This document shows, one piece after another, positions 6,189 to 15,748 of a DNA stretch of 64,000 bases (its first letter is position 1; each line of letters starts with the position of its first letter). Below the pieces are notes generated by a model that saw only the letters and a list, made by a program, of their open reading frames with translations, searched no databases and was not told the origin of the DNA. Location of the stretch: assembly GCF_014697025.1 (NCBI RefSeq), contig NZ_JACJRC010000010.1:1-64000 (forward strand). The letters are read 5' to 3'. The translations under genes were made by a program, and so were the position numbers. Source of the DNA: Alkalinema sp. FACHB-956. GTDB taxonomy: Bacteria; Cyanobacteriota; Cyanobacteriia; Leptolyngbyales; Leptolyngbyaceae.

Positions 6189-7682
6189 CTATGCCACCGA
6201 GCCGTGGAGCTGCTGGGAATGCCGATCGGCGGACTGGAGAAACTCCACTAGCCATTCCTTAATCAAATGGGTGGCACGGCAATCATCTTCGTTATAGACC
6301 AAAATCGAGTCCAGGAAAGACCGATCGCCCGTCTGCAACCATTGGGCATACCAGTAAATCGACTGGGCACCGTTGGCGCTGGAATCCCGCCATTCAAAGC
6401 CAATCCAGCGGGCAATATTTTTCAGGGCATAGCTTTCTACGGGCAAGGTAGCTACCCGAGTGACGACTTCATGTAAATCGATAAACCGAGGCAGCATGGG
6501 TTGAATCAGGTGCTGCGGTGTGTCATACAGCTTGGCCAACTTGTTGACCGTCTGCACTTCGTAGGGGCAAAAATGAAAAATGGGCGCATCTGGATACGCC
6601 CATACCAAATCTAGAAGTTCTTGCCACACCCGCATTTCATGGTCTGGATGGTCAGCCAGAAAGGCGTGGAACTGTTGGGTCTGTTTCTGTCGATCGACGA
6701 CCAAGACCCCATGCAGGTAGATGAAATCTAAGGACGGTTCAGATTCAATGTCGAAATAAAGTTCGATCGAGGAGGTGGGAAGAAATTCGTTAATAAAGCG
6801 AGGCCGCTGGTGCACGGGGGGATAGTCTGTGGTGGGTAGCGCCTGGTTTTGGAGGGTTGCCTGGGCTTGCTGGGTGATTTTCTTCGCCATTTCCAAGCCG
6901 AAGCCGGGTAAGGTTTCGAGGGCCTTGGGAGGCGTCTTGGCGAGGGATTCCAGGGAGGTCAGGTTGAGGGCTTGCAGTTCCCGGTAGCGGCTCTGGGTGA
7001 CGCCCGGTAAGAGGGACAGGTGCTCCGTTTCTTTGGCCGTTTCGTAGCAATGACTGTACCAATGGCAGAGACTACAGCGATTGCGGGAGATAAACACCTC
7101 TGGACTGGCTTCGGCCTGGAGGCTGGCAATACAACTAGTCAGAACCTCTTCCATGCGGGGAATCATTTCCCACAGATCGATCGAGTATTGTCCTTTTTCC
7201 CGCAGGAACAAATAAGATTCTTCCGGCCAGGTGCCCTGTACTGCCGCCAGCACTTTGACGTGGTAAGCCGCCACGATTTGGTATTCCGTTTTGGAACGCT
7301 TACTCAGCTTAATTTCCACGGGGGCATACAGCCAATCTCCCAGGTCGGACGTTCCCGCCTGCCTCACGAGCAGGTCTGGGTTGCTCATTAAGGTAGTGCC
7401 CTCAACCTCCGTCAGCAGTACACCCTGGTAAATAAAGTCCGCCCCTTGTTGCATCAGTTCTAGGGTCTTGGCAGCGGCGATCGTCCAGTTGTGGCTGGGG
7501 TAGACGGGTCGCACATAGTCCAAGGTTTCGAGAATTTCGCGGTGGTGAGCAGCACTATCCTGCATCAACTTGACCACGTAGTCGTTCATGGAGTCACGCT
7601 GAAGCGGGTCGCCGTGGGTATCAAGGAAAGCGCGGCGGCTGCATCGTTGATAGTTCAACAAAAGCTCTGCCGTTATGAGCAT
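6189..7682 (-). CDS. TM0106-family RecB-like nuclease with C-terminal RNase H-like domain
   Basis: A 497-residue protein with three modules. Residues 1-215 are Cas4/RecB-like: a PD-(D/E)XK core with D103, E123 and K125 (in PVEIKLSK) and four cysteines, C14 plus C203, C206 and C212, arranged like the Fe-S cluster ligands of Cas4/AddB nucleases. Residues 250-270 hold a helix-hairpin-helix (LPGFGLEMAKKI). Residues 305-480 resemble a DEDD exonuclease/RNase H-like domain, with D311 and E313 in YFDIES and a terminal YNEDDCRAT. The family is annotated as putative nuclease without a settled role. No cas genes are nearby, so a CRISPR function is not indicated; DNA repair is a guess. Confidence 0.85.
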   Translation of the reverse strand: MLITAELLLNYQRCSRRAFLDTHGDPLQRDSMNDYVVKLMQDSAAHHREILETLDYVRPVYPSHNWTIAAAKTLELMQQGADFIYQGVLLTEVEGTTLMSNPDLLVRQAGTSDLGDWLYAPVEIKLSKRSKTEYQIVAAYHVKVLAAVQGTWPEESYLFLREKGQYSIDLWEMIPRMEEVLTSCIASLQAEASPEVFISRNRCSLCHWYSHCYETAKETEHLSLLPGVTQSRYRELQALNLTSLESLAKTPPKALETLPGFGLEMAKKITQQAQATLQNQALPTTDYPPVHQRPRFINEFLPTSSIELYFDIESEPSLDFIYLHGVLVVDRQKQTQQFHAFLADHPDHEMRVWQELLDLVWAYPDAPIFHFCPYEVQTVNKLAKLYDTPQHLIQPMLPRFIDLHEVVTRVATLPVESYALKNIARWIGFEWRDSSANGAQSIYWYAQWLQTGDRSFLDSILVYNEDDCRATHLIKEWLVEFLQSADRHSQQLHGSVA

Positions 7683-9240: not shown

Positions 9241-10665
9241 ATGGGCGTTAAGCATGTAGCCATTGAGTCACTTCCATCGCCACAGGTCTTACCATCACAG
9301 GTATTGCCATCACAGGTCTTACCACCACAGGTATTGCCGCCACAGGTACCAGCATCTGGACTCCCCGTAGAGTCAGCCAAATCCGCTCGCCGGGGACGTT
9401 CTAGCAAGAAAACCACAACCCCAAAAACGATCGAAAAACGCACCATCGACAAAAACCTAACGGAGGCCACCCTAGCCAATTTGAACGGAGCTGAGCCGAT
9501 CGAGGCCAATACGCCCGTTGGTAAATCTCGCCGTGCCGTGCCCAGCCCAAAACCCCCTGCCACCCAAACCCGTTGCCTCACCAAACCCTTGCCCTCCAGT
9601 AATGCCCCTGCCGTCTGGACAGCCCCCTCTAGTCAAGTATTGGAGCAAATTAAGGATTTTCGGCAGCAGCTAGAGGCCATGCAAACCCAAATCGCCACTA
9701 TGAATCAGCAGTCCGCCGCCCTGGACACTAACCTAGGAGAACTGCGCAAGCTCTCCCAGCAAATGCAATCCCTCGCGAAATCCCACGCAGCGCAGCAGGC
9801 TAGATCTACACAGTCTCCAGCGCCCCATCCCCGTCTGGATGATTGGGGTTCCCAGTTACCCGCCAGTTCTGAAAATTCAGGCGGCCCAGAATTCCAGCCT
9901 GCGGTCAAACCCAGCTTTGTCTCCCGCTCCCAACCGATCGCGCCCTATTCCGCCTCCGCTCACGCTACAAAAGCCGTCAAACCCAGTCTGATTGTCACCA
10001 CGTCCCAACGGCAAAGCCCCGCGATCGAACCTCAGCCTTCCCCGGCCACTGCCTCAACCCATTCCGCTGGTACTCCCCCCGCAAAACCCAGCTTCATTCA
10101 CCTGAGCCAGTCTCACCCCAGCCAGTCTCACCCCAGCCAGTCTCGCCCCAGTCAGTCTCACTCCAGTCAATCTCCCAGCCAGTCTAGCCCTTCAACGCTG
10201 GCCCAACCCAGCCCACAATCTCGACCACAATCTCGACCACAACCTGCCGCAAAGCCGACTGCACAATCGATCGCACAAGTTGTGACTGCCCCGGTTTCCC
10301 CGAATCCGGCTTCCCCGAGCCCACGATCGGCGCGGATTCGTCGCCCACCGTCCTCGACGCAAGCCCATGGGATGCCTTCCCCCCCTCTTCGGCTGCGGTT
10401 ACAAGCTCTGTTACCCATTCCCCAGAACCCAGTCACGATCGCGATCGATGCCATGCTGTGGACGCTGACAGCAACGGGGGTGCGGCTAGGGATTCAAGGG
10501 GTGATTGTGTGGATTCCGAGCTTGGCGGTGCCGTTAACGCTAGTCATGTTATTACCGGCGATCGTGGCTGCTTATTTAGCCTTTTTCGTGCCTCAATCCA
10601 GTACGACTGTGATTTATCGATTGTTGCTGATCACGTTGGGATTGTTTCTGGGATCAAAAATTTAA
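9241..10665 (+). CDS. Uncharacterised Pro/Ser/Gln-rich protein with C-terminal membrane helices
   Basis: A 474-residue protein not assignable to a family. Residues 15-40 consist of five five-residue repeats (LPSQV/LPPQV) encoded by a 15-bp tandem repeat. Residues about 130-185 form a predicted coiled coil (QVLEQIKDFRQQLEAMQTQI and onward). The middle is low-complexity Ser/Pro/Gln, including SQSHP repeats at about 290-320. The last 75 residues are hydrophobic, with two or three membrane helices (IQGVIVWIPSLAVPLTLVML; LLLITLGLFLG at the end). It looks like a tail-anchored protein with a long disordered cytoplasmic or periplasmic arm. An AAGGGG element lies upstream of the ATG. First gene of a plus-strand run of four unknowns. 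Confidence 0.65.
   Translation: MGVKHVAIESLPSPQVLPSQVLPSQVLPPQVLPPQVPASGLPVESAKSARRGRSSKKTTTPKTIEKRTIDKNLTEATLANLNGAEPIEANTPVGKSRRAVPSPKPPATQTRCLTKPLPSSNAPAVWTAPSSQVLEQIKDFRQQLEAMQTQIATMNQQSAALDTNLGELRKLSQQMQSLAKSHAAQQARSTQSPAPHPRLDDWGSQLPASSENSGGPEFQPAVKPSFVSRSQPIAPYSASAHATKAVKPSLIVTTSQRQSPAIEPQPSPATASTHSAGTPPAKPSFIHLSQSHPSQSHPSQSRPSQSHSSQSPSQSSPSTLAQPSPQSRPQSRPQPAAKPTAQSIAQVVTAPVSPNPASPSPRSARIRRPPSSTQAHGMPSPPLRLRLQALLPIPQNPVTIAIDAMLWTLTATGVRLGIQGVIVWIPSLAVPLTLVMLLPAIVAAYLAFFVPQSSTTVIYRLLLITLGLFLGSKI
9282..9348 (+). repeat. 15-bp in-frame tandem repeat
   Basis: About five copies of a 15-bp unit (ACAGGTCTTACCATC with variants) inside the N-terminal coding part of the Pro/Ser-rich protein; it encodes repeated LP(S/P)QV. 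Confidence 0.75.
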
Positions 10666-10690
10666 CCGTAGTTTTAGCAAGGATTTTTGG

Positions 10691-10738
10691 TCGGTTTTAG
10701 TTTCGGTTTTAGTTTCGGTTTTAGTTTCGGTTTTAGTT
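10691..10738. repeat. Four perfect 12-bp tandem units
   Basis: Four uninterrupted copies of TCGGTTTTAGTT occupy the space between two genes, ending 22 bases before the next ATG. The T-rich repeats could affect termination of the upstream transcript or translation of the downstream gene; they may also be simple slippage products. Confidence 0.9.
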
Positions 10739-10760
10739 GCGCTATGGAGGTTGATTCATC

Positions 10761-11201
10761 ATGCGATCGCACCTAGAAAGACCCACTTGGAGAGCCCTGC
10801 CTTGGCAAGCTTGGCTCCGGCCTCTCCGTCTCGCTTGGACACCTAAGCAATTATTAGCGGGAGGAACTGCCATCTTGACCCTGGGACTCTGCTTGGACTC
10901 GAAGGTTTTTTCCGCTGCTAGCCAGTCATCTATTGCCGATCGCTGCGTGCAAGTTGTGGAATCCAAGGCCCAAATTTCTCGACAACAATTGGGGCAATTT
11001 TTGACCATTCCAGAGGCAACGGCACGACCTCAAGTCACGAAAGTTCTCCCCAAGCCCTACTGCTATCTGGCCAGCCTGCAAATTCGCACAGGCAGCAAAG
11101 CCGATCGCGCTGTCTATCCCCTCGCCTCCAATCCCAAAACCTGGTTGGTGGTTTTATATGAGGGCGATCGCTATATGGGATATGACTTTATTACCCATTA
11201 A
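10761..11201 (+). CDS. Uncharacterised membrane-anchored protein, 146 aa
   Basis: No family recognised. The N-terminus is rich in Arg/Trp (residues 1-28), followed by a hydrophobic stretch (LLAGGTAILTLGLCLD, about 31-46), which may be an uncleaved anchor or signal peptide. The soluble part holds DRCVQVVESKAQISRQQLGQ, two spaced cysteines and a C-terminal strand-rich YPLASNPKTWLVVLYEGDRY. It starts 95 bases after the Pro/Ser-rich gene in the same direction and may be cotranscribed with it. GCGATCGC-type sites inside it match the host pattern, so no recent transfer is suggested. Confidence 0.7.
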   Translation: MRSHLERPTWRALPWQAWLRPLRLAWTPKQLLAGGTAILTLGLCLDSKVFSAASQSSIADRCVQVVESKAQISRQQLGQFLTIPEATARPQVTKVLPKPYCYLASLQIRTGSKADRAVYPLASNPKTWLVVLYEGDRYMGYDFITH

Positions 11202-11329
11202 GCTGAATACAATCATCTTGTTGCTGTGTTGATGGGTTCTGAGGGCTTTTAGCGTTGCTCTAAACGGATTAATTTAGTTTTTTCTGATTCTAAATCTGAT
11301 TTCCTTTTGTTTCTGACTCCCCTTTATTC

Positions 11330-11782
11330 ATGTCGCTTTCGCCCATATTGCTTATTTTTATAGTTTTGATCAGTTGCCTCTCTGGTTGTAGTACTTCCCA
11401 ACAATCCCCACCCCTTGCTGAGATTAAGCTCTATCAAAACTGGGAGTTACAAGCGGGCGATCGGGTGGGAGGCTATGAAGTCACTGGCGGGTTAGGTGAT
11501 ATTTCGATCGCGCTGAAAGGTCAATCGATCTATGCGCCCTTTAACGGCGACACACAACTGGATAAACGTCGCTGTGTCTATTTTGATAGTCCAGAAGTTC
11601 CGTCCTATAAGTTGCGATTTTGTGGGGTGCAGTCGCCCAAGGTTGGAAAAGTGCAGCAGGGCGAAGCGATCGGTCGGGGTGAGACGCTCCAATTTGCAGC
11701 CCTACGCAGGCAACCCAATGGAACCTGGGCCATTGTTGAACCCTCAAAAATAATGTTGGAGAAAACCCTAAAAGCCCCATGA
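11330..11782 (+). CDS. Lipoprotein with degenerate LytM/M23-like beta domain (tentative)
   Basis: A 150-residue protein with a clear lipoprotein signal: hydrophobic PILLIFIVLISCL then lipobox LSGC, with Cys at about residue 20. The mature part has phrases reminiscent of M23 peptidase-type beta-sandwich proteins (GQSIYAPFNGDTQ, VGKVQQGEAIGRGETLQFA, RRQPNGTWAIVEPS), but none of the metal-binding histidines (no HxxxD or HxH), so it cannot be an active zinc peptidase. A regulator or scaffold role at the envelope is inference. Its stop codon overlaps the start of the next gene (ATGA), indicating translational coupling. Confidence 0.65.
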   Translation: MSLSPILLIFIVLISCLSGCSTSQQSPPLAEIKLYQNWELQAGDRVGGYEVTGGLGDISIALKGQSIYAPFNGDTQLDKRRCVYFDSPEVPSYKLRFCGVQSPKVGKVQQGEAIGRGETLQFAALRRQPNGTWAIVEPSKIMLEKTLKAP

Positions 11783-12966
11783 AGTGGATTATCAATTGGC
11801 AAATTGTGCACGGTAAAGTGCAGAAATCCTTGGTCGTGTTGTTTAGTTTTTGGTCATTGTGGCTGGGGATGAGTTATGCAGCCCAAGCGGATGGGGTTGT
11901 GGGCTTTGACGCGATCGAGATCGAACAAGCGGCTGTAACGCCACAGGTGATTCAACAACCGCTGATTAAACAACCGCAGGGGCAACTGTCCCGGCCCAAT
12001 TCCGCTAGTTTGACACCGCCTTCCCCGACGCTATCGGTATCTCAACCCCCAGCCAATCCCTCCCAAAATCCCTCCAGTCCTGCGGATGCCGAAGCTGAAG
12101 TGGTTGTCTTTCCAGCGGAGTCTCGTGCAGCGATCGCACCGACTGATTCGTCAGTGGCCCAAGGGGAGCCAGAAGTCGATCGAACGGTTGATCGAATGGT
12201 TGATCGAACAGTTGATCGAACAGTTGAAACAACCCCTAGGAACTTCGATCGTCCATCACCTTCGCTAGGTTCACCATCAACCAGTCACGGTAATGTAGAT
12301 CAGATTGGTAATCACAACGCATTCGACAATGCTGATACTACGATTTTTGCCGGGGGGGCAAACTCACTGGTCGCTCGGGCTGTGGGCAGTGCTGAGGGAA
12401 CCCGCCGCCCCGATGGAGGCAAAAATCCTGCCTACTATGGCCATGTCGATCCCGGTAATGCGCAGTGGAACCTAGGCAGTTTTTCCTACCAGCATGGAGC
12501 CGCATCCCCGGCAGAGGCCGACGATCGTCAACTGCGCCGACTGCAAAAACAAGACCAAATGATTCGGGAACGGGCGGCCCAGTACGGGATGCAGCTAGGT
12601 TTGAAAGAACGGTTAAATGCCATTGATTTGGCGAACCAAGCGCCCTTAGCGGCCCTCGATCGCGGGGGCTATGTGGAACGGCTGAAGGCGGCTAAGCAGG
12701 CAGGTTTATCTGGAGAGGCTGCCATTCTAGAGGCCCGGGTCAATGCCTACCGCCACCCGGACACCCAGCAATGGGATGCCCCTGGCTTGGGCAATAATGA
12801 AGCCTTTATTCGCCACGATCAAGCTCGCCGCATGGATGCGATCGCCCAAGCGATGATGGTCGATCAAACTTGGATTCGCAAACGGGGGCAATTTCAGCGA
12901 GTCCCGCGATCGTCAGGAACGGAAGTGGCTCAGGTTATGCAAATGGATCAAACCTGGACTCGTTGA
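11779..12966 (+). CDS. Uncharacterised secreted protein with GGKNPAYYGHVDPGN motif
   Basis: A 395-residue exported protein: basic N-terminus, hydrophobic SLVVLFSFWSLWLGMSYAAQA, likely cleavage near residue 36. Residues 40-160 are low-complexity Pro/Ser/Gln, with a 12-bp repeat giving VDRTVDRMVDRTVDRT. The C-terminal 220 residues look like a conserved domain: GGKNPAYYGHVDPGN, WNLGSFSYQHGAASPAEADD, a charged helix with RRLQKQDQMIRERAAQYGM, then LNAIDLANQAPLAALDRGGY and RMDAIAQAMM. I recall similar hypothetical proteins from other cyanobacteria but no function. Coupled to the lipoprotein gene by a four-base overlap and followed by a strong terminator. Confidence 0.75.
   Translation: MKWIINWQIVHGKVQKSLVVLFSFWSLWLGMSYAAQADGVVGFDAIEIEQAAVTPQVIQQPLIKQPQGQLSRPNSASLTPPSPTLSVSQPPANPSQNPSSPADAEAEVVVFPAESRAAIAPTDSSVAQGEPEVDRTVDRMVDRTVDRTVETTPRNFDRPSPSLGSPSTSHGNVDQIGNHNAFDNADTTIFAGGANSLVARAVGSAEGTRRPDGGKNPAYYGHVDPGNAQWNLGSFSYQHGAASPAEADDRQLRRLQKQDQMIRERAAQYGMQLGLKERLNAIDLANQAPLAALDRGGYVERLKAAKQAGLSGEAAILEARVNAYRHPDTQQWDAPGLGNNEAFIRHDQARRMDAIAQAMMVDQTWIRKRGQFQRVPRSSGTEVAQVMQMDQTWTR
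12176..12227 (+). repeat. 12-bp in-frame tandem repeat
   Basis: About four copies of GGTTGATCGAAC-like units in the low-complexity region of the secreted protein, encoding repeated VDR(T/M). The unit contains the CGA/GATCG core common in this genome. Confidence 0.75.
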
Positions 12967-13020: not shown

Positions 13021-13043
13021 AAAAGGGGAATGCTCCCCTTTTA
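13021..13043 (+). terminator. Intrinsic terminator after the secreted-protein gene
   Basis: AAAAGGGGA (13021-13029), a four-base loop, then TCCCCTTTT (13034-13042) gives a nine-pair stem ending in a T-run. The A-run on the other side makes it usable by the convergent DUF4870 gene as well. Confidence 0.85.
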
Positions 13044-13115: not shown

Positions 13116-13490
13116 CTACAGTACCCGGAAAATAAAGGGATAGCGGAAGGCTTCATCGGGATTGGCCAAGGTTTTGAGAATAGCGACGATCGACCAACCA
13201 AAGTGCCACAGGAACCCAAAGGCAATCATTGGAAAGAGCAGAATCCCTAAAATGCCAAAGGTCAGGAATGACAACACGCCGTAAATTCCACCGATCACGC
13301 TGGCCCAGAACCAAATATTTAAGTGGAAATTAATCGACTCCTTGGCATTGGCTTTTACCACCGGATCGTCGGAAATCATCAGCACGACGATCGGCGCAAA
13401 AATGGTGACAACCGAAACTCCGGCCAAGGTAAATCCGTGGCAAATCAATGAAAGTAAGCTGCGTTTACCAGAATCATATGAGCCTTGCAT
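13116..13490 (-). CDS. DUF4870 domain membrane protein
   Basis: A 124-residue integral membrane protein with three to four hydrophobic segments (SLICHGFTLAGVSVVTIFAP; LNIWFWASVIGGIYGVLSFL; LTFGILGILLFPMIAFGFLW). The segment VKANAKESINFHLNI is the hallmark of DUF4870 (YtzI/Tic20-like superfamily). Ends in FRYPFIFRVL, typical of the family. Function unknown. Convergent with the upstream secreted-protein gene and upstream of the minus-strand slipin gene's terminus by about 130 bases. Confidence 0.88.
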   Translation of the reverse strand: MQGSYDSGKRSLLSLICHGFTLAGVSVVTIFAPIVVLMISDDPVVKANAKESINFHLNIWFWASVIGGIYGVLSFLTFGILGILLFPMIAFGFLWHFGWSIVAILKTLANPDEAFRYPFIFRVL

Positions 13491-14773: not shown

Positions 14774-15748
14774 ATGGCTGATATCACGCCTGCCTACGAA
14801 CTCAATCCCACTGGACGGTTCAGCGATCGTGCGGAGGAGTACGATCAATATCGCCCCAGCTACCCTGCTGCCGCGATCGATCGCATCCTCAGCCACCTTA
14901 CCCCTGCGCCCATGGCTGTAGACTGTTCCATGAATTGCAACAGACCCACTGCCGCCGATATTGGGGCTGGCACTGGAATTGCTGCTCGCTTACTGGCCGA
15001 TCGGGGCTTGCAAGTGTGGGCAGTGGAACCGAATGCCGCCATGCGGACAACCGGACAGCGCAGTGTACAAATACAAAGCAGTGTACAAATGCAAAGCAGT
15101 GTACAAGTACAAAACAGTGTACAAGTACAAAACAGTGTACAAGTACAAAACAGTGTACAAGTACAAAACAGTGTAGAACCTCACCTGACAACCCCCAATT
15201 CCCAGCCCATCACCTTTTGGGACGGAACTGCCGAGGCTACCCAATTGCCCCCAGCTTCCATGGACGTGGTTACTGCCTTCCAAGCCTTCCATTGGTTCCA
15301 CCCCGATCGTGCCTTGGCGGAATTTCACCGGATTCTCAAACCAACAGGCCGTCTCGCGATCGTCTGGAATAACCGAGATCGATCGGACGCCTTCACTGCC
15401 CTGTATGGCAAATTCATGAAGCAGGCCAGTCCCACTCCCACCCTCGCTGAACGTCGCGACAATCCTGAACCGCTCTACCAGTCTGCGCTCTTTACCCACA
15501 CCCACCATTACGCCATTGCCCATACGCAATCGCTAGATCTAGCGGGCTTACTGGGCCTCGCCAAAAGTCGATCCTATGTGCCACTGGCAGGCGCAGCCCA
15601 CGATCGCCTCATGACTGATTTAACGCAGCTTTACCAGCAATTCGCCGATGACGCAGGTCGAGTCTTTATTCACTACCGGACTAACCTTTACCTTGCCACC
15701 CCTATATCGACTCCCCCGATCGCGCGGGTTGATAGCCCTGCGGAATAA
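14774..15748 (+). CDS. Class I SAM-dependent methyltransferase with repeat insertion
   Basis: A 324-residue methyltransferase of the UbiE/Methyltransf_11 type. SAM-binding motif I is ADIGAGTGIAARLLADRG with the acidic residue after strand two in VWAVEPNAAM; later motifs are FWDGTAEATQLPPASMDVVT and AFQAFHWFHPDRALAEFHRI, then LKPTGRLAIVWNNRDRSD. Between motif I and the TAEATQLP segment the protein carries about 38 residues of SVQVQN repeats from an 18-bp tandem array, probably looping out of the Rossmann fold. Substrate unknown; similar proteins act on small molecules. Standalone gene. Confidence 0.85.
   Translation: MADITPAYELNPTGRFSDRAEEYDQYRPSYPAAAIDRILSHLTPAPMAVDCSMNCNRPTAADIGAGTGIAARLLADRGLQVWAVEPNAAMRTTGQRSVQIQSSVQMQSSVQVQNSVQVQNSVQVQNSVQVQNSVEPHLTTPNSQPITFWDGTAEATQLPPASMDVVTAFQAFHWFHPDRALAEFHRILKPTGRLAIVWNNRDRSDAFTALYGKFMKQASPTPTLAERRDNPEPLYQSALFTHTHHYAIAHTQSLDLAGLLGLAKSRSYVPLAGAAHDRLMTDLTQLYQQFADDAGRVFIHYRTNLYLATPISTPPIARVDSPAE
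15061..15168 (+). repeat. 18-bp tandem repeat, six copies, in frame
   Basis: Six consecutive 18-bp units (consensus CAGTGTACAAGTACAAAA, the first two diverged) followed by a partial seventh. The last four are identical. The array is open in several frames on both strands, which produces spurious overlapping open frames. It encodes SVQVQN repeats inside the methyltransferase. Confidence 0.95.

Follow-up and report, generated by a model that had tools for sequence, protein, structure and literature searches.

What do four adjacent genes, none assigned to a named family, contribute to the cell envelope of a cyanobacterium? The question is raised by genes G1 to G4 of Alkalinema sp. FACHB-956, which occupy positions 9,241 to 12,966 of the window, a stretch of 64,000 nucleotides (NCBI RefSeq assembly GCF_014697025.1, contig NZ_JACJRC010000010.1, positions 1 to 64,000) within a 6.16-Mb genome. 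As the initial annotation had it, all four open reading frames are present and lie consecutively on the plus strand in the order G1-G2-G3-G4. We read them as a cell-wall remodeling module, at a probability of about 0.62: by analogy with known systems, an exported G4 would cut peptidoglycan, G3 would control it, and G1 and G2 would link the pair to the membrane. The features of the locus are:

9241..10665, plus strand: G1, 474 amino acids; Pro/Ser-rich body, coiled-coil-like at ~130-190, conserved C-terminal membrane part
10761..11201, plus strand: G2, 146 amino acids; hydrophobic N-terminal stretch, conserved small domain, two invariant Cys (62, 101)
11330..11782, plus strand: G3, 150 amino acids; lipoprotein (Cys20), degenerate LytM/M23 domain at residues ~45-145
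11779..12966, plus strand: G4, 395 amino acids; signal-like start (by eye), Pro-rich linker, putative C-terminal lysozyme-like domain
12337..12867, plus strand: G4 domain, profile match with motifs AEGT, GHxDPGN, FSYQH, DLANQ, and DQxRR
12394..12396, plus strand: codon for Glu206, which closes a model helix at its C terminus and is the candidate catalytic acid
11779..11782, plus strand: ATGA stop/start overlap of G3 (TGA, 11780-11782) and G4 (ATG, 11779)
13021..13042, no strand assigned: terminator-like hairpin 3' of G4, by folding energy; called on the minus strand only by a consensus scanner

Scans of G1-G4 against Pfam and NCBIfam returned no family above the cut-off, and PADLOC gave no usable family, its single weak match being to the coiled coil of G1. 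A PHROGs scan of G2, G3, and G4 likewise produced no usable family, and searches of PDB sequences with profiles of these three proteins retrieved designed repeat proteins, SecA, and one hypothetical protein, none of them a usable relative.

Conserved adjacency had been named in advance as the test of whether the genes form a system, and relatives display it. From the best 80 of 194 relatives (L101-L180), a selection biased toward window-like copies, we used the 74 named cyanobacterial loci in which 2.3 kb or more of sequence precedes G4, the other six having been dropped for short upstream sequence. Upstream of G4, G3 is present in 58 of these loci, G2 in 64, and a G1-type C-terminus in 42. 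G2-G3-G4 occur in this order in 58/74 loci and all four genes in 40/74, always as G1-G2-G3-G4. Because the order recurs in relatives, across many genera and partly on megabase contigs, the grouping of the genes exceeds chance. Presence across genomes follows the same pairing. Of 58 genomes, that of Alkalinema among them here and in the family count that follows, 45 have G4, 44 have G3, and 43 have G2 (all three in 42, none in 12); G3 and G4 coincide in 43 (Fisher p = 1e-9, uncorrected for kinship). Within the same family, the counts over 35 genomes are 33 for G4, 34 for G3, and 33 for G2. Across 386 phylum-wide genomes, where scoring was confined to the 8-10 best candidates of each genome and counts are possibly low, G4 appears in 23, and G2 and G3 in an identical set of 10, all among those 23. 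Some lineages commonly have the gene set; in most of the phylum it is missing or went undetected. Some relatives carry G4 at more than one place per genome.

Gene fusions add to this picture. Ten candidate regions were chosen where two matches shared one open frame; five hold G2/G3 plus G4 (L266-L270), four hold G4 only (L271-L274), and one gave no match (L275). G2 and G3 are fused at three loci in two genomes (L266, 284 amino acids; L267, 285; L268, 281), with G4 next in each. In the L270 operon, G2 and G3 are followed by a G4 fused to an M23 domain in which HxxxD and HxH are both readable, and the M23 domain upstream in the G4 protein of L267 has HxH without HxxxD. The fusions link G2 with G3, and they link G4 with endopeptidases of peptidoglycan.

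The description of G3 as a lipoprotein whose fold is M23-like and catalytically empty proved accurate. Its lipobox is LSGC, ending in Cys20, and a loose lipobox pattern is also found in 49 of 60 aligned relatives. The AlphaFold2 model (mean predicted local distance difference test [pLDDT] 90.7) has the LytM domain of PrgK as its best Foldseek match (E 5e-4), and VIA gives Z scores of 10.2 for LytU, 9.7 for DipM, and 9.5 for EnvC. When G3 was aligned to M23 peptidases with hhalign, its LQFA fell on HLHFE (E 0.003), and the profile score of 38 lay above all 100 column shuffles, whose maximum was 25. The zinc-binding motifs have been lost. The window copy contains zero His residues; among 60 relatives, HxH occurs in the last 110 residues of one, and an H...D string, counted anywhere in that span with its position unchecked, in five. 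With columns set from the hhalign alignment, the second His of HxH is retained in 27/60 relatives and the first in 2/60; the second His is probably left over from an ancestor that was active. Invariant residues across 60 G3 sequences include Cys82, Cys98, Trp133, Glu137, and Pro138. Fold, profile, and missing zinc motifs agree: G3 combines the LytM beta fold with loss of both HxxxD and HxH, as LytM factors do, and lacks the intact zinc site of an active M23 peptidase. An M23-type protein without a zinc site matches the pattern of LytM regulators.

For the C-terminal domain of G4, a lysozyme-superfamily fold is supported, not proven, by structure prediction (AlphaFold2 mean pLDDT 93.5). The best PDB match in Foldseek is the SpmX muramidase domain (probability 0.96, E 0.06), and phage-type hydrolases were also retrieved. 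P22 lysozyme heads the VIA list (Z 8.6, root mean square deviation 4.0, 136 residues aligned), with MltF and MltE at 7.8; the first 30 rows, spanning Z 8.6-6.8 and including many for MltF, comprise lysozymes/endolysins, lytic transglycosylases, and chitosanases, and because VIA lists do not result from a search, the absence of a family from them does not exclude it. Against BFVD, the domain's own homolog alone passes E 0.001, and the named matches beside that homolog are lysozymes and endolysins. When 16 sites taken from a list of conserved positions were checked, 14 were invariant in 139/139 phage and host sequences, including Glu206, His222, Asp224, Asp283, Gln287, Arg320, Asp347, Gln348, and Arg351. 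In enzymes of the lysozyme superfamily, a core helix typically ends, on its C-terminal side, with the catalytic Glu. Glu206 is the last residue of model helix 18-27, and it falls on the Glu-Gly of GH24 in an hhalign alignment that is itself weak. The initial annotation had raised the prospect that this domain would match a known enzyme family unrelated to its neighbors; the likeness found is to lysozymes, a superfamily whose known members share their substrate with M23 peptidases. Membership of G4 in GH24 (Phage_lysozyme, PF00959) by sequence was considered and rejected, as Pfam was silent and the shuffle control failed. The Alkalinema genome has zero matches to PF00959.

Several observations weigh against the module reading. 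A VIA Z score near 8 can, by the tool's own note, reflect a chance arrangement, no Foldseek PDB match of G4 falls below 0.001, and 86 G4-domain members compared with Pfam at E values up to 1 matched no lysozyme family. The G4-GH24 profile score was equaled by 3/100 shuffles; two unrelated negative pairs gave 18 and 9/100. For G3, the hhalign probability against M23 is just 11%, and it is on the shuffles and the fold that the assignment rests. At the level of the gene set, G4 stands without any of G1-G3 in 10/74 loci and G2 without G3 in 6/74, and neither G2 nor G3 was detected in 13 of the 23 G4-bearing genomes from the phylum-wide sample. G4 can therefore do without G3. The earlier proposal that all four genes cooperate at the envelope is favored by adjacency, the G2-G3 fusions, and co-occurrence, whereas joint biochemical action is a step that we infer, and G1 was detected in just 42/74 loci.

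In the mechanism that we favor, G4 would be exported, and its C-terminal domain, a candidate for an undescribed lysozyme-superfamily family shared with phages, would cut the glycan strands of peptidoglycan via Glu206. G3, a lipoprotein whose zinc site is lost, would dock on G4 or on peptidoglycan and thereby switch or target the enzyme. G2 and the coiled-coil, membrane-ending G1 would connect G3-G4 with the inner membrane and with a particular cellular location or signal. Catalysis, the sign of regulation, complex formation, the topology of G1 and G2, and the cellular process served are what we infer here; control or targeting of G4 by G3 would parallel DipM-SdpA or PrgK. In filamentous cyanobacteria, work on how cell-wall cutting is controlled has centered on amidases. 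A dead LytM protein together with a lysozyme-like protein that is unclassified and has relatives in phages supplies a named candidate for glycan-strand cutting, and the conserved set gives testable roles for four unnamed families.

Precedent exists for a degenerate LytM domain acting on a wall enzyme. In Caulobacter, the inactive LytM domain of DipM stimulates the lytic transglycosylase SdpA (PMC10336132). DipM with SdpA/SdpB resembles G3-G4 in that an inactive LytM domain stands beside a glycan-strand-cutting enzyme (PMC10336132), and the DipM LytM domain is the one that G3 resembles at Z 9.7. Unlike DipM, G3 is a lipoprotein that shares an operon with its presumed partner, G4 has no recognizable SLT domain by sequence, and stimulation of G4 by G3 is putative. 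PrgK of plasmid pCF10 likewise joins a degenerate LytM domain, the best Foldseek match of G3, to a muramidase whose activity it reduces, and its authors find a phage origin tempting to suppose (PMC11323569). PrgK differs in being one chain with a CHAP domain from a Gram-positive conjugation system, whereas G3 and G4 are two cyanobacterial proteins. LytM activators of the EnvC/NlpD type share a dead LytM fold (EnvC, Z 9.5) and an envelope location with G3; their known partners are amidases (PMC10336132), whereas the fold matches of G4 are lysozyme-like. The SpmX muramidase domain and GH24 phage lysozymes are among the best fold matches of G4, and an invariant Glu-Gly is common to both sides, but they show no significant sequence or profile match, and G4 has its own GHxDPGN, DLANQ, and DQxRR motifs. 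LytM-controlled wall enzymes are already known; the libraries and papers searched yielded no record of the G4 family, of its operon pairing with G3, or of G1-G2. No description of the operon or of the G4 domain was recognized among the matches listed from the open-access literature searched.

Relatives of the G4 domain are encoded on 35 viral contigs and in five plasmid records. At L181, the gene for a G4 protein whose start is signal-like lies directly upstream of a terminase gene, followed by portal and capsid genes (PHROGs), and L182 resembles this locus by eye. The domain sits at the end of a 950-1020-amino acid protein in 15/35 viral loci. In Krakvirus S39C11, the large G4-domain protein is annotated as LysM domain-containing, and Microcoleus phage My-WqHQDG has an annotated amidase, the G4 domain, and then two genes with M23 domains. 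An M23 match lies within 3 kb of G4 in 10/35 viral, 1/95 operon, and 2/22 other loci, counts that include repeats (L061-L100 and L101-L180 overlap partly, so that both the operon and the other loci contain them) and come from a partly circular profile: L088, L185, and L214 helped to build it, and these match by construction, as do the copies L186 and L187 (L185/L186 are one protein, and L187/L088 likewise). Pfam independently detects M23 in L088, L100, L185, L188, and L214; Peptidase_M23 and the G4 domain share one protein in L185, L188, L214, and the genome locus L100. On a Leptolyngbya plasmid, a protein with the annotation M23 metallopeptidase also spans a G4 match. The frequent company of an M23 domain in phages would suit a part in wall opening, and the G4 domain could mark unannotated phage entry and lysis proteins. 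An M23-like stretch seen by eye in a 4554-amino acid phage protein of L190 was missed by the M23 profile and is not claimed.

The G4 tree, which contains several very long branches, does not support a single origin of the operon, solo, or viral G4: these need 11, 10, and 5 changes, respectively, for 88, 18, and 32 rows. It therefore does not show which way the domain passed between phages and hosts. Alignment A4 holds 85 of 115 locus matches plus the window copy, 30 having been dropped by eye for thinning. Profiles of G1, G2, and G3 gave zero matches in the 35 viral loci, which are pieces of contigs. One history, which we advance tentatively and at less than even odds, is that G4 founds a new lysozyme-superfamily family that serves phage entry and exit and was captured by cyanobacteria; its M23 partner would have decayed into the regulator G3, and G1-G2 would have joined as a membrane pair to form a four-part switch across the envelope that governs the cutting of glycan strands.

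Other readings of the cluster were weighed as well. G4 could be a captured phage lysin whose activity has been lost and that now serves as a peptidoglycan-binding scaffold or localizer, with G3 as its docking partner. The SpmX muramidase domain, its best Foldseek match in the PDB, has reportedly been proposed for such a role, and the LytM partner of G4 is dead. We nevertheless judge a purely structural G4 unlikely: the sites invariant in all 139 sequences include Glu206, His222, Asp224, and Asp347, and the L270 copy in a host operon, with its readable zinc motifs in the fused M23 domain, suggests active enzymes. If G4 were instead a secreted weapon against bacteria or incoming phages, G3 would be the immunity or restraint protein, much as the LytM domain of PrgK lowers the activity of its muramidase (PMC11323569); the resemblance to phage lysins and the multiple copies per genome in some relatives would fit. 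This strikes us as quite improbable, given that PADLOC offers only its weak coiled-coil match to G1, that the gene order is stable, and that near-universal presence within the family (G4 in 33/35 and G3 in 34/35 genomes) fits a household role better. It is very improbable that the genes are the remnant of a phage or mobile element rather than a host system. The viral and plasmid relatives of G4, along with phage-like regions such as L100, speak for an origin of that kind, but G1-G3 are not matched in the viral pieces, and the gene order recurs across many genera, partly on contigs of megabase size.

Among the host and mobile-element neighborhoods, L100:9372-11540 encodes a 722-amino acid protein that combines a membrane part, Peptidase_M23, the G4 domain, and a trypsin-like protease, with capsid-like genes nearby. 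The G4 relatives of L084 and L088 lie amid small, mostly unnamed genes that look mobile-element-like by eye, and at L088 an M23 gene (Pfam) and a trypsin-like gene (by eye) adjoin the relative. Genes resembling ExbB/TolQ and ExbD/TolR (by eye; clusters c8, c9, and c13) lie downstream of G4 at L070, L071, L074, L082, L087, and L098, and some of these loci carry a TonB-like gene on the opposite strand. The occurrence of ExbB/ExbD-like genes after the operon in 6/41 neighborhoods hints at an envelope link only.

G1 had been described as a coiled-coil, tail-anchored, Pro/Ser-rich protein, which agrees with its composition (Pro/Ser/Thr/Gln, 44%), its coiled-coil-like stretch, and hydrophobic segments found at the end only (416-453 and 456-474, hence more than one). 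Its C-terminal membrane part is conserved among relatives; G1 had seemed unique in a first clustering because its body is of low complexity. G1 probably faces the cytoplasm. A match of G1 to FcmC (NF052682), annotated as ParR-like, was dropped (score 17.2 versus a cut-off of 90, residues 118-193 only), as were other weak coiled-coil matches. The portrayal of G2 as a small anchored protein stands in part: an N-terminal hydrophobic stretch is present, but the window copy stays below the 1.6 hydropathy threshold, making anchoring the weaker half of the claim. The signal-like start of G4 (AQA), read by eye, likewise stays below this threshold in the window copy.

At the nucleotide level, the ATGA overlap of the last two genes is real. 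Among 63 G3-G4 pairs of relatives, 12 have the nearest possible G4 start at -4, and 29 have it within 30 bases. The strong terminator annotated after the cluster holds up less fully: the hairpin at 13021-13042 does fold (-12.5 kcal/mol, z -3.3), but the consensus scanner, which found 2 terminator-like sites over the region versus 5.1 in shuffles, lists it on the minus strand only, so it may serve the convergent gene at 13116-13490 as well. Between G1 and G2, four perfect copies of the 12-bp unit TCGGTTTTAGTT occupy 10691-10738. Two genes 5' of the cluster, positions 6189-7682 encode an RNase_H_2-type protein with a weak helix-hairpin-helix match. Farther 3', an open reading frame at 14774-15748, methyltransferase-like by eye, contains an 18-bp tandem repeat (6.4 copies, 15061-15175) that encodes repeated VQNSVQ.

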